A stretch of 64,000 nucleotides of DNA, taken from Soonwooa buanensis. GTDB taxonomy: Bacteria; Bacteroidota; Bacteroidia; Flavobacteriales; Weeksellaceae. Shown piece after piece: positions 34,377 to 39,517 of this stretch. The position numbers and the translations under genes are program-made. The notes beneath the pieces are model-generated. The model saw only the letters and a list, made by a program, of their open reading frames with translations, was not told where the DNA came from and made no database searches. The stretch is from the NCBI RefSeq assembly GCF_900167905.1, contig NZ_FUYZ01000001.1, forward strand, positions 62,001-126,000. Direction: 5' to 3'. The stretch's first letter is position 1. Every line of letters begins with the position of its first letter.

Positions 34377-34450
34377 GGTTTTAGGTTTTAGGTTTTAGCA
34401 AAATTAATTCATAATTCATAACTCATAACTCATAACTCATAATTCATAAT
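34377..34450 (+). repeat. Tandem heptamer repeats
   Basis: Two kinds of 7-bp tandem repeat in an intergenic gap. TTTTAGG occurs about three times at 34377-34399, and AAYTCAT six times at 34406-34447. They separate the GNAT-nitrilase and YggS genes. Slipped-strand length variation is possible, and distance to the YggS start (34466) would change with it. Confidence 0.9.
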
Positions 34451-34465
34451 TAACAATTAAGAAAA

Positions 34466-35202: not shown

Positions 35203-35877
35203 TTACAAATTCCAGTAATTATAAATTTTATTAAAACTCATTTTTAAATCCTCAAAATTTTCTCCATTTATAATGTATAAATCCGAATAATAATATTTTG
35301 GAACATCTTTTTCTGTTTCAATTTTAAGGCTCAAAATGTAGACAAAGTCCTTTGTCTTCCATAGAAAATATTCTTTCTCAGCAAAATTATCAGAATCTAT
35401 TTTTTGAGGATTTCCAAACTTCTTGACTAGAATATTTTTTAGATGTTCATAATTCTTCTTATTATCTTTATAAGAAAATGATACAGCTCGTAAAGACTGA
35501 AACTCATTTTTTTGATTGCTAATCATTTCAAGTTTTTGAAACTTCACATTTCCAAAAAAAGCCAAAGTATCTTTTGTATTAATGCTTTTCATCTCATATA
35601 ACAGCAACTTTTTGGTATCAGAAACGTCAATTGTTTTAATGCCTTCAACAAATTTATATTGTTTCAAAAGCTTGTCATAAGCAGGTGTGTCCATTTTGTC
35701 TTGTTCAAGAAGTTCAGTCGTTTTTTTATTTAATTCTAACTGTTTTTTGTAAAAACTATTGACATCAAAAGGCATTTTGAAGTTTTCCAAGTTTATCTTA
35801 TCCTTTCCCAATTCCAAATGCTGGGCAGAAAACATCACCGAAGCAAAAACTACAATAATCCGAATTATGTTTTTCAT
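35203..35877 (-). CDS. Hypothetical secreted protein
   Basis: A 224-residue protein with a signal peptide (IIRIIVVFASVMFSAQHL). The mature part is lysine-rich, with alternating helices and beta strands and no recognisable motif. It is the last gene of a minus-strand cluster of small exported proteins (35203-38409). Gap of 24 bp to the upstream lipoprotein, so probably one operon. Function unknown. Confidence 0.68.
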   Translation of the reverse strand: MKNIIRIIVVFASVMFSAQHLELGKDKINLENFKMPFDVNSFYKKQLELNKKTTELLEQDKMDTPAYDKLLKQYKFVEGIKTIDVSDTKKLLLYEMKSINTKDTLAFFGNVKFQKLEMISNQKNEFQSLRAVSFSYKDNKKNYEHLKNILVKKFGNPQKIDSDNFAEKEYFLWKTKDFVYILSLKIETEKDVPKYYYSDLYIINGENFEDLKMSFNKIYNYWNL

Positions 35878-35901
35878 AACATTATTATTTATAAGAAAAT
35901 A

Positions 35902-36519
35902 TTATTCTTCAGCATATTCCGGATTTAGAAATGTTAAATTTTGAGGCACTTTTATTTCAACAAATTTTTCTACATCAAAATCGATTTTCCAAATTTTGTA
36001 AATCCTTGTAATACTTTCTTTTCCGCTATCCTCATACTCTGCCAAATACACTTTTTCGGAACCGTCTAATGTCAAGTGAACAGCATTAAAATAAGTTTTG
36101 GGATGATTAGTTATTACATTTAGTTCATCAACAATTTTAAAATTAGCTTTACCATTATCATAGTAATTCATAAATTTTTCGAAAAGAATTTTGTTCTTTC
36201 CTTTGAAGCAATCGTCTACAACATTTGAATATTTTGCTATTGCAAATTTTTGTTCATTATCTTCAAGCAACATCCCAAAACATTCATGAATATTTAATTT
36301 ATTGATTTCGATAGTTGTTTTCCCAATAAAAGAGGTATCCAAAATATCATGAGGATCTTGAGGTATTTCTTTTAATTCTATTGGTTGAGCCAATGTATCT
36401 TTTACAATATTTTTTGAAATTGTTGTTGAATCTGAATTCTGAAGATTCGAAACCGACTCTTCTTTTTTACAAGAAGTAAAAGCTAACAGAATAGAGAGAA
36501 TTATAATATTTTTTGTCAT
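35902..36519 (-). CDS. Hypothetical lipoprotein
   Basis: I start it at 36519 (205 residues), where IIILSILLAFTSCKKEES gives a clean lipobox with Cys17; the longer frame upstream adds 12 residues with no signal character. After lipidation, KKEE and a serine/threonine-rich linker (about 20-55) hold the protein at the membrane. The rest has two Cys (HECFGML and DDCFKGK) that could form a disulphide. No family recognised. Same cluster as the paralogous pair upstream. Confidence 0.7.
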   Translation of the reverse strand: MTKNIIILSILLAFTSCKKEESVSNLQNSDSTTISKNIVKDTLAQPIELKEIPQDPHDILDTSFIGKTTIEINKLNIHECFGMLLEDNEQKFAIAKYSNVVDDCFKGKNKILFEKFMNYYDNGKANFKIVDELNVITNHPKTYFNAVHLTLDGSEKVYLAEYEDSGKESITRIYKIWKIDFDVEKFVEIKVPQNLTFLNPEYAEE

Positions 36520-36595
36520 TTTGCTTAAGAACTTAGATTGAAAGTAAAATTTCATTTCTTTAAAACTAAAATACGGAAATTATTAATTTTAAAAA

Positions 36596-36698
36596 CAAAA
36601 GCAGCCAAAATTGACTGCTTTTTTGTATATCTAAAAATAGTTTATTTTGTTCTTACCTCACCAAAATCAAATGCTTTAGTAAATATTAAATCTTTAGT
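36596..36698 (+). repeat. Direct repeat, copy 1 (103 bp identical to 37251-37353)
   Basis: Holds the terminator hairpin and the last ~18 codons of the downstream paralogue (protein end TKDLIFTKAFDFGEVRTK). It equals 37251-37353 base for base, with the copies 655 bp apart. Confidence 0.95.
36597..36626 (-). terminator. Terminator of the first duplicated lipoprotein gene
   Basis: AGCAGTCAATTTTGGCTGCT hairpin followed on the minus strand by TTTGTTTTT. Part of a 103-bp block repeated exactly at 37251. Confidence 0.8.
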
Positions 36699-37229
36699 CT
36701 CTGGTAGATATATTGTAAGGTCTATACCTGGAGGACAAGTGGCATCGTCCAATATAATATCATTAGGACGATATTCCCAGGATAACTGATTAGCATTAAG
36801 CTTTTTTAGTATTACAACACCCCAACCAACTGAACAGTTAGTGCCAGAGTACAATAATGTTACCTCATTTTGAGCAGCTCGGGTAGCTATACTATAGAGT
36901 TGATTATTATTACTTGTAATATTTTTTGTATCCTGAAGAACGCTATCTGATGCATTTTTAACAACATACTTAACGACAAGTGCATCCATAAAATAAGTCT
37001 TATTAATACTTTTTTCAATTTTATTTTCTTGCTTTGTAAGATATAATGTTATCTTTTTATTCTCAAAGCTTGCTTCATAGACACCTGTATAAGCTTTTAA
37101 CTCATTATCTAAATCTTTAACATACGCATTATTAGGAATATCGTCTAAGTAAGTATTAAGAGGAAGTGTTTGTGCTGTACATGATACAGAAGCTATAAAT
37201 AAGCTAAATAAAACTGCAGTTTTCTTCAT
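36642..37229 (-). CDS. DUF6705-like lipoprotein, paralogue 1
   Basis: A 195-residue lipoprotein. I start it at 37229, where KKTAVLFSLFIASVSCTAQ gives a lipobox (Cys17); the in-frame ATGs upstream give a poor N-terminus. The body resembles the gene just upstream: YVKDLDNELKAYTGVYEASF near residues 30-50, a Cys-containing YSGTNCSVGWGVVILKKLNA centre, ATCPPGIDLTIYLP, and the shared end TKDLIFTKAFDFGEVRTK. It looks like a small uncharacterised lipoprotein family common in flavobacteria (DUF6705-like; name from memory). Only the end of the gene is identical to its paralogue, the rest is diverged. Confidence 0.75.
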   Translation of the reverse strand: MKKTAVLFSLFIASVSCTAQTLPLNTYLDDIPNNAYVKDLDNELKAYTGVYEASFENKKITLYLTKQENKIEKSINKTYFMDALVVKYVVKNASDSVLQDTKNITSNNNQLYSIATRAAQNEVTLLYSGTNCSVGWGVVILKKLNANQLSWEYRPNDIILDDATCPPGIDLTIYLPETKDLIFTKAFDFGEVRTK

Positions 37230-37250
37230 TATAAATATTGTCATATGATC

Positions 37251-37353
37251 CAAAAGCAGCCAAAATTGACTGCTTTTTTGTATATCTAAAAATAGTTTAT
37301 TTTGTTCTTACCTCACCAAAATCAAATGCTTTAGTAAATATTAAATCTTTAGT
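37251..37353 (+). repeat. Direct repeat, copy 2 (identical to 36596-36698)
   Basis: Same terminator and gene-end block as copy 1. Sequence diverges right after 37353. Confidence 0.95.
37252..37281 (-). terminator. Terminator of the second duplicated lipoprotein gene
   Basis: Same AGCAG...CTGCT hairpin as at 36597, directly downstream of the gene at 37297. Confidence 0.8.
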
Positions 37354-37893
37354 TTTGGGAAGATATACTTTAATATCTGTACCTGGAGGACAAGTTTTAT
37401 CTGTTAATATCGTAACCCCTGATACATACTCCCATGATAGTTGTGTTGCATTAAGCTTCGTTAGATTGACTATCCCGTTGCCAACGCCACAATTAGTCCC
37501 ACCATAGGTTGCGAATAGCTTTTGTCCATTATCATCTACCCAATGACTAATAATAAAGTCTTTAGTAAGATTTGAGTTGAAAGTAATACTCCTACTATCT
37601 ATTAATATATTCCCATTATAATCTTTTATCAAATAATTTACAATTAAGATATCTTTATAAAAAAGATTTATTCTATCAAGTAGCTTTTTATTATGTTTTG
37701 TAATAAATAATGTAATGCTTTTACCTTCATAATTAGCAGTATAAGTCCCTGTAAAACCAGAAAGCTCATTATTAGTATCTTTTAGATACACATAGTTGGG
37801 TAATTCTGTATAGAGCGTTTTAAGCGGATATACATCTTGTGCTTTACATGATATTGCAAAAATTACAATAAATAATAATAGTATTTTTTTCAT
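37297..37893 (-). CDS. DUF6705-like lipoprotein, paralogue 2
   Basis: A 198-residue lipoprotein with signal ILLLFIVIFAISC (Cys16). Order of conserved parts is as in the paralogue downstream: YVYLKDTNNELSGFTGTY, the central YGGTNCGVGNGIVNLTKLNA, KTCPPGTDIKVYLPKTKD and the identical C-terminus. Sequence identity elsewhere is only moderate, so this is an old tandem duplication with recent homogenisation of the 3' end. Probably surface or periplasmic; function unknown. Confidence 0.75.
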   Translation of the reverse strand: MKKILLLFIVIFAISCKAQDVYPLKTLYTELPNYVYLKDTNNELSGFTGTYTANYEGKSITLFITKHNKKLLDRINLFYKDILIVNYLIKDYNGNILIDSRSITFNSNLTKDFIISHWVDDNGQKLFATYGGTNCGVGNGIVNLTKLNATQLSWEYVSGVTILTDKTCPPGTDIKVYLPKTKDLIFTKAFDFGEVRTK

Positions 37894-37905
37894 ATTGTCA
37901 TAATA

Positions 37906-37931
37906 TAAAAACAGCCAAAATTGGCTGTTTC
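37906..37931 (-). terminator. Terminator related to the duplicated hairpins
   Basis: AAACAGCCAATTTTGGCTGTTT with a T-rich tail on the minus strand, following the gene at 37939. It resembles the two duplicated hairpins. Confidence 0.78.
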
Positions 37932-37938
37932 ATTTATT

Positions 37939-38409
37939 TTACTTAACAAGGATAATCTCTTTGTGCGACTTTTCTCTTTCGGAATATCGTTCGCCATAAA
38001 GTTTAATAAAATTATTGACAGCTCCTTCGTTAATCTGTTGATTGACAATGAAATTATTCTTAACAATCGTTTGGGCAATGGATTTTTTTAAATTAAGCCA
38101 AGTAGCATCCATCTCTGCAGCTTTGTCCAAATCCGAAAAAACAAATCGTAAATAAAGTTCTATTGAAGGTTTTCCATCTGCATCTTTTTTCAAAGGATTA
38201 ACACTTTCTAAAAGAGCGATTGACATCAATGGCTTATCATCCAAACTGCTTATATGATACACGCAATTACTTGAAAACACACCGCAACCTTCTGCTTCTA
38301 CTTTTGCTATTTCTTTTTTTCCATTATATAACATGTTATTTTTCATACTCTGCGATATCGCAAAACTAGAAAACAAAACACAAAAACCTATAAAATATTT
38401 TTTTTTCAT
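37939..38409 (-). CDS. Hypothetical secreted protein
   Basis: Start chosen at 38409 (156 residues) because KKKYFIGFCVLFSSFAISQS is a proper signal peptide there; the ten residues upstream overlap the glycosyltransferase gene. The mature part has two cysteines (EGCGVFSSNCVYH) and a basic end. No family recognised. The start codon sits 2 bp from the stop of the glycosyltransferase at 38411, so it may be translationally coupled to the glycan operon. Its terminator resembles those of the duplicated lipoproteins. Confidence 0.65.
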   Translation of the reverse strand: MKKKYFIGFCVLFSSFAISQSMKNNMLYNGKKEIAKVEAEGCGVFSSNCVYHISSLDDKPLMSIALLESVNPLKKDADGKPSIELYLRFVFSDLDKAAEMDATWLNLKKSIAQTIVKNNFIVNQQINEGAVNNFIKLYGERYSEREKSHKEIILVK

Positions 38410-38410
38410 A

Positions 38411-39517
38411 TTATGTTGAATAAATTTGTTCATACACACGAATCAAATTTTGTGCTATCAACTTATCATTAAATTTTAATTGAGCAAACTCGTAAGATTT
38501 TTCGGCGCGGCGTTGTCTTTCGGATTCGTTGTCCCAAAGGAAACTTATTTTAGCCTTAACATCCTTAACATTAAGTGGATTAACATAGACCGCATCTTTT
38601 CCGCCAGCCTCGGGCAGACAACTTAGGTTACTGGTGATAACAGCAGTTTTAGAAAAATGAGCTTCGATAACGGGAATCCCAAAACCTTCGAACAAGCTTG
38701 GATACACAAAAATATCTGCCATTTGATAGATACAGGCCAATTCCTCCATCGATACGCCTTCCAAAAACTGAACTTGCGCTTCCAATTTTTCTTTTTTAAT
38801 AAAGCTTAAAATCTGATCGGCGTATTTGGTTTTTCGACCAACCACAACCAACGGAATATCAGTATTTTGCAAAGCTTTAATCACCGTAAAAAGATTTTTG
38901 CGCTCTTCTATTGTACCAACATTTAACACAAATCGTTCTGGTAAATTATATTTTGATTTGACTGTATTAAGCTCTTCTTGTGACTTTTCGGTTTTGAAAG
39001 CCGCATGACAACCTTGGTACACAACAACCACTTTTTCGGCTGGGACTTTTAGCATTTCGATGACATCCTTTTTTGTTTGTTCCGAAATGGCGATAATTTT
39101 GTCAGCAGAATGTGCTGCTTTCTTAAATTTCCAAAAGTGAATTTTACGATCAAAAAATGAATAGAATTTAGGATAATGAACAAAAATCAAATCATGAATG
39201 GTTACAATTTTTTTGATTGTTTTTTTATTCCATTTTAAAGGTAATTCGCCCGATAATCCATGAAAAATATCCGCATCGAGATTCTGCGCATCCTTCCCCA
39301 TTTTGAATTGTCGCGCCATATTTCCTTTCGAAATTGGACTAAAACTTACCGATGGATTTTCAAGAATCGTTTTACCACGTTCGTTTTCACGTTTTGCAAG
39401 AAGCATGTATTTGTTTTCAGGAAAAAACTCTGACAACATCCTCACAAGATCGCGCGAGTAATTGCCCAATCCCGAAGTGTTATTAAAAAAACGTTTGGCG
39501 TCGTATGCGATTTTCAA
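38411..39517 (-). CDS. Glycosyltransferase family 4 (GT-B fold)
   Basis: A 368-residue retaining GT-B transferase. The N-terminal half starts KIAYDAKRFFNNTSGLGNYS, and the C-terminal donor-binding half carries RFVLNVGTIEERKNLFTVIK and the E-x7-E signature SLFEGFGIPVIEAHFSKTA. Adds a sugar from a nucleotide donor to a glycan acceptor at the cytoplasmic face. It is the last glycan gene of a tight minus-strand operon (7 bp from the deacetylase). Donor and linkage cannot be told from the sequence. Confidence 0.93.
   Translation of the reverse strand: MKIAYDAKRFFNNTSGLGNYSRDLVRMLSEFFPENKYMLLAKRENERGKTILENPSVSFSPISKGNMARQFKMGKDAQNLDADIFHGLSGELPLKWNKKTIKKIVTIHDLIFVHYPKFYSFFDRKIHFWKFKKAAHSADKIIAISEQTKKDVIEMLKVPAEKVVVVYQGCHAAFKTEKSQEELNTVKSKYNLPERFVLNVGTIEERKNLFTVIKALQNTDIPLVVVGRKTKYADQILSFIKKEKLEAQVQFLEGVSMEELACIYQMADIFVYPSLFEGFGIPVIEAHFSKTAVITSNLSCLPEAGGKDAVYVNPLNVKDVKAKISFLWDNESERQRRAEKSYEFAQLKFNDKLIAQNLIRVYEQIYST

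Follow-up and report, generated by a model that had tools for sequence, protein, structure and literature searches.

The locus analysed here raises the question of how two tandem lipoprotein genes, whose proteins are only 49% identical in amino acid sequence, come to have exactly the same end, and what such genes are for. They lie in a 64-kb window (the whole stretch of 64,000 nucleotides under analysis) from a genome of the Weeksellaceae, to which Chryseobacterium and Epilithonimonas also belong. The initial annotation had described a 103-bp perfect repeat at the ends of the two diverged genes, and an exact-match scan of the window confirms it as a maximal direct repeat whose copies are spaced 655 bp apart (Table 1). 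Apart from this pair, the window has no exact direct repeat of at least 25 bp.

The repeat and the genes that share it

As first described, the identical segment takes in the last 18 or so codons and the terminator of each gene. It consists of 57 coding nucleotides (18 codons and the stop) followed by 46 non-coding bases, made up of the 3′ UTR and a terminator hairpin. Outside the perfect repeat, identity is lost in two steps: the adjoining 40 nt still agree at about 80%, and farther on the figure is 45–65%. Because unrelated copies of the same gene family use the same codon for identical residues only about half the time, 18 identical codons together with 46 identical non-coding bases can be ascribed neither to chance nor to constraint at the protein level. 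Both proteins terminate in AFDFGEVRTK, while their relatives terminate in FTKQ followed by the stop codon. The 33 nt encoding this tail occur exactly twice in the genome, and a search for a source elsewhere in the genome, allowing up to three mismatches, found none. When the full 103 bp are searched as DNA against 320 Weeksellaceae genomes, they match only themselves. All other hits are short or look like terminators, and terminators throughout these genomes resemble the hairpin part. A third, imperfect copy of the hairpin (81%) is seen at 37900–37930, exactly 655 bp further on and behind an unrelated gene (37939–38439). This copy could be an older version of the repeat junction, or a terminator that happens to look similar.

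Table 1. Coordinates in the window of the two DUF6705 genes and of the features of their shared end.
Feature	Position	Strand	Basis
Repeat, copy 1: last 18 codons, stop, 3′ UTR and terminator of the upstream DUF6705 gene	37251..37353	-	exact match
Repeat, copy 2: last 18 codons, stop, 3′ UTR and terminator of the downstream DUF6705 gene	36596..36698	-	exact match
DUF6705 lipoprotein gene 1 (upstream), 198 aa; beta-barrel model, pLDDT 92	37297..37893	-	PF20448, 28.4 bits (cut-off 24.4)
DUF6705 lipoprotein gene 2 (downstream), 194 aa; mosaic, core nearest the L029/L027 type, 3′ part of ‘NDIILDD’ type	36642..37226	-	PF20448, 26.2 bits (cut-off 24.4)
Private C-terminal extension AFDFGEVRTK-stop, gene 1	37297..37329	-	
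Private C-terminal extension AFDFGEVRTK-stop, gene 2 (Q-stop in the rest of the family)	36642..36674	-	
Terminator-like hairpin in the repeat, behind gene 1 (same as behind gene 2)	37253..37280	-	sequence
Terminator-like hairpin in the repeat, behind gene 2	36598..36625	-	sequence

Both proteins score above the gathering threshold of PF20448 (DUF6705), and 100 of 110 relatives match the profile at E ≤ 0.1. Each has a lipobox (SCKAQ and SCTAQ), and C16 is kept in at least 90% of 110 DUF6705 sequences; this lipoprotein signal with its cysteine is a feature of the present members and lies outside the Pfam definition of the family. The literature that was searched holds no paper mentioning DUF6705. 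Relatives are found in 144 of the 320 Weeksellaceae genomes, often in tandem rows, and the two window genes are the only copies in their own genome. One other genome of the same genus carries no DUF6705 gene. Synteny between the two genomes is lost near 38484, where the neighboring glycosyltransferase gene has its 3′ end, and in the other genome the opposite flank lies 27 kb away; the segment from 35 to 38.4 kb of the window varies between the species of the two genomes compared. Beyond the DUF6705 pair, at 35203–36555, the same strand carries two further small secreted or lipoprotein genes, with products of 224 and 217 aa that belong to no family. A short tandem repeat with a 14-bp unit (TAATTCATAACTCA-like) is present at 34405–34460, between nitrilase-like and YggS-like genes.

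Recombination homogenises the 3′ ends of DUF6705 arrays

The window pair can be set within its family by placing 136 distinct DUF6705 genes from 64 loci on one profile. For pairs of genes from the same array with core amino acid identities of 35–60%, the identity at 4-fold sites is 0.27–0.49 at columns 12–156, as it is for pairs from different genomes. At columns 156–188 it reaches 0.59, 0.68, and 0.75 within arrays, compared to 0.34–0.42 between genomes. The 3′ end is more alike than the divergence of the cores predicts in 29 of 37 Weeksellaceae arrays (median excess 0.13; Wilcoxon P = 5e-6), the other 8 showing no such excess, and windows of the same length placed in the core give an excess of about 0 across the 37 arrays. 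The nearest neighbor of a gene is in its own array for 59 of 110 genes when judged by the 3′ end, but for only 24 of 110 when judged by the core. The shared segment covers the last 35 or so codons, often extends through the intergenic DNA, and sometimes reaches the signal peptide of the next gene. Recombination, in the form of gene conversion or of unequal crossing-over, therefore holds the ends of the genes in an array nearly identical; the cores, by contrast, are old and separate lineages. The 103-bp repeat of the window is a recent tract of this 3′ homogenisation. The initial proposal of gene conversion, or of replaceable 5′ parts joined to a constant 3′ end, is thereby supported and becomes general for the family. 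Its agent is presumably homologous recombination of the RecA type, and conversion of the 3′ ends may follow from the arrangement without being selected itself.

Identical 3′ ends might also arise if purifying selection acted on both the C-terminus and the terminator, or if a very recent tandem duplication were followed by fast evolution of the cores. The C-terminus is indeed among the best conserved parts of DUF6705 proteins. Purifying selection nevertheless fails as an explanation because genes share synonymous and non-coding sites only when they stand in the same array, these sites being saturated between genomes. In the family-wide alignment, synonymous identity jumps at the 3′ end within arrays, and the smooth rise in synonymous divergence that would have spoken against the initial proposal is not observed. 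As for duplication, the cores of the two window genes appear to come from different lineages. They are not sisters in the tree, and joining them costs 30 log units, with a borderline p-AU of 0.0498. Gene 36642 has a core closest to that of locus L029 and a 3′ part from another gene set. Because its cores sit in different parts of the tree and one of its genes is a mosaic, the window pair probably represents two old lineages that share an end, rather than the product of a simple recent duplication. Selection on the C-terminus or recent duplication is thus highly improbable as the source of the identical ends.

Three close species show how such rows change. At one locus with syntenic flanks (86–93%), five DUF6705 genes are present in genome G080, two in G223, and one in G081. 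G223 carries the first and fifth genes of the G080 row, and within the last 30 or so codons of its first gene, the sequence switches from that of the first G080 gene to that of the fourth. G081 preserves the core of the second gene; it also retains a scar where the upstream, toxin-like lipoprotein gene began, and a 3′ end left over from the first gene. The switch points at this locus fall in the constant 3′ end. The arrays of close species thus differ in entire cores, and it is in the constant end that the breakpoints lie, whether genes were gained or lost. The changes in copy number and the mosaic breakpoints anticipated by the initial annotation are therefore both seen, in relatives of the window species. 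G081 is in an orphan state like that of the window, with the parent locus still recognisable. Neither site-specific recombination nor a mobile element provides a better account: all array genes examined are on one strand and no recombinase family recurs beside the arrays in the 49 loci whose neighborhoods were surveyed, and the repeat is ordinary coding sequence plus a terminator, unlike mobile-element, CRISPR-like, or attC-like repeats.

A JAMM lipoprotein as the predicted partner

In relatives, DUF6705 genes have a regular companion. The gene for a lipoprotein of 350–550 aa, or a fragment of it, adjoins DUF6705 in 45 of 49 loci, a partly redundant set retrieved through DUF6705 matches. This protein has several unlike N-terminal parts, in many cases a low-complexity linker, and a conserved C-terminal domain of about 205 aa for which Pfam, NCBIfam, and PADLOC hold no family. 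Three residues of this domain (H65, H67, and D79) are invariant and two more (E30 and S76) are kept in at least 90% of sequences; together they make up the E…HxH…S..D motif of JAMM proteases. Eight residues separate HxH from the serine, the usual JAMM spacing being seven. The AlphaFold model of the domain is confident (pLDDT 94.6), and its VIA-align rows are dominated by JAMM/MPN domains (AMSH, Sst2, Rpn11, and others), with Z up to 8.4 at low sequence identity. The motif and the model suggest that the domain is of the JAMM/MPN metalloprotease type. For DUF6705, the model (pLDDT 92) shows a small lipocalin-like barrel with middling fold scores (Z up to 9), and small beta-barrels of this kind are common; such a fold agrees with an inhibitor role without proving it. 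Neither model had a significant match by Foldseek alone (no E below 0.001 for the JAMM domain), NCBIfam and PADLOC searches with both proteins returned no useful match, and a PDB sequence search with both profiles returned nothing.

The two genes are tightly coupled. For 47 JAMM C-terminal domains, the DUF6705 gene lies downstream and starts between −31 and +31 nt from the end of the domain. Fragments consisting of the JAMM C-terminal domain only, each followed by DUF6705, are found within the arrays of loci L022, L034, L047, and L087. Across the 320 Weeksellaceae genomes, both families occur in 138, DUF6705 only in 6, the JAMM lipoprotein only in 29 (as detected by a single-protein query, which may miss diverged DUF6705 copies), and neither in 147 (Fisher P = 2e-52), so that the JAMM lipoprotein is present in 167 genomes. 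The window genome is one of the six with DUF6705 only: the JAMM protein is absent from it, and a search for a toxin remnant in the window found none (best E 0.78). Because its genome lacks the JAMM protein, the window pair looks like orphan immunity genes. Other genes recur at these loci. A Cro/C1-type HTH regulator gene stands by JAMM/DUF6705 loci in 11 cases (for example, L025, 2165–2539), and a family of uncharacterised 381-aa proteins with a weak RHS-repeat-like match (E 0.08) follows the arrays at L043 (5229–6371) and 5 other loci. In the seven full-length JAMM proteins scanned, no RHS match was found.

The variable parts of the two genes also match each other. Within one subgroup, the distance between JAMM C-terminal tails correlates with that between the adjacent DUF6705 cores (r = 0.71) far better than with that between the cores of the next copies (r = 0.28), part of the correlation being due to the shared ancestry of the loci; a Mantel test on the whole set was set aside, as it is dominated by two subfamilies. 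The L087 locus places the pieces in order. Among its three modules, all in one genome, the JAMM cores are about 100% identical, the C-tails and DUF6705 cores 30–80%, and the DUF6705 3′ ends 86–100%, and past these ends identity drops again in two of the three module pairs. This pattern argues that the variable unit consists of the toxin tail and the immunity core, set between two constant arms.

DUF6705 would accordingly be a lipoprotein immunity protein, an inhibitor directed against the JAMM lipoprotein encoded just upstream in relatives. What is exchanged would be the variable JAMM C-terminal tail together with the DUF6705 core, with the JAMM core serving as the upstream arm and the DUF6705 3′ end as the downstream one, and old immunity genes would be left behind in a row. 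In the window genome, the toxin-like gene would have gone or never have arrived, leaving two orphan immunity genes that could guard against foreign toxins; the purpose of the whole would be competition between cells. The window genes are thus probably spare antidotes from a so far undescribed weapon-and-antidote system. Judged from the sequences, we find it quite probable that this full account is correct, with the window pair as a two-gene remnant of a DUF6705 array, recombination at the 3′ ends, JAMM-directed immunity, and an orphan pair.

Two other functions have to be weighed against it. The DUF6705 protein could be an inhibitor or chaperone of the cell's own JAMM lipoprotein without any part in competition, the arrays then being the product of neutral duplication and conversion. 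The operon-like spacing, the covariation, and the small lipocalin-like barrel would all agree with this, but the many unlike cores per array beside one full-length JAMM gene are better explained by an immunity repertoire, as are the C-terminal-only fragments and the genomes with orphan DUF6705 genes, and we regard a regulatory pair as unlikely. The locus could otherwise diversify an antigen or adhesin, as the initial annotation supposed in calling it a diversifying surface-protein locus: tandem lipoproteins with variable cores and constant ends are what is expected if cores are swapped to vary an exposed surface. That idea does not account for a DUF6705 gene fixed directly behind the JAMM lipoprotein, for orphan JAMM fragments, or for the strong co-occurrence of the two families, and an antigen locus predicts no tracking of the JAMM C-tail by the core of the first gene rather than the second. 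With the arrays tied in this way to the JAMM lipoprotein, surface variation is less likely than an immunity array, and on the whole quite unlikely. For the immunity array, we lean slightly towards a broader statement: that the Weeksellaceae possess an undescribed contact-competition system in which JAMM lipoprotein toxins and DUF6705 immunity barrels have two built-in recombination arms, matched tail and core cassettes are swapped together, and old immunities are stored in arrays or as orphans. Such a reading offers a testable function for DUF6705 and for an unannotated JAMM lipoprotein.

Comparison with known systems

The layout would be that of a polymorphic toxin and its immunity protein, related in kind to Tox-JAB-1/Imm65. 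Tox-JAB-1 toxins were predicted in Bacteroidetes together with Imm65, then the sole lipoprotein immunity family in the collection (Zhang et al., 2012; PMC3482391). Both systems have a JAB/JAMM-type C-terminal domain with HxH, S, and D, a lipobox immunity lipoprotein, and Bacteroidetes hosts (PMC3482391). Here, however, the carrier is a lipoprotein rather than an RHS protein, and there are long DUF6705 arrays with homogenised 3′ ends. The Pfam models for Tox-JAB-1 and Imm65 are absent among the matches listed for the JAMM-domain and DUF6705 members, and a remote kinship may exist. SitA/SitI of myxobacteria is similar in that the polymorphic toxin is itself a lipoprotein with its immunity gene directly downstream, but its delivery is by TraA/B outer-membrane exchange and its toxin domains are different (PMC5562445).

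For the arrays, the closest parallels are the EsaG and TipC immunity arrays of the firmicute T7SS, which recombine through homology blocks (Garrett et al., 2022; PMC9484751). They too are made up of tandem, non-identical immunity paralogues with homology blocks, one of which is at the 3′ end and in EsaG takes in the intergenic DNA that follows the gene. In TipC a block at either end encloses a variable middle part, and there is probably a lipoprotein signal. Loss and expansion occur via recombination at the blocks (PMC9484751). The proteins are unrelated, the hosts Gram-positive, and the toxins those of the T7SS. Arrays of the EsaG/TipC type are marked by a constant block that is more alike than expected and at which copy number changes; all of this is found in DUF6705 relatives, and the window shows the identical block. 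The T6SS immunity arrays of V. cholerae, formed by sequential effector displacement, likewise consist of one effector with a series of old immunity genes kept behind it (Kirchberger et al., 2017; PMC5361080). They have no preferred breakpoint site (PMC5361080), whereas the breakpoints mapped here are in the DUF6705 3′ end. The lpl genes of S. aureus are also tandem lipoprotein genes that recombine via a common block, but this block is central and about 130 nt long, and PMC9484751 mentions no adjacent toxin-like gene.

The kind of system is already known, while our searches found no description of the DUF6705 family, of the lipoprotein carrier, or of a 3′ arm within the immunity gene. If the proposed reading is true, recombining immunity arrays, described in the firmicute T7SS, extend to the lipoproteins of Bacteroidota, and a downstream homology arm inside the antidote gene suggests a simple rule by which toxin and antidote could change together.
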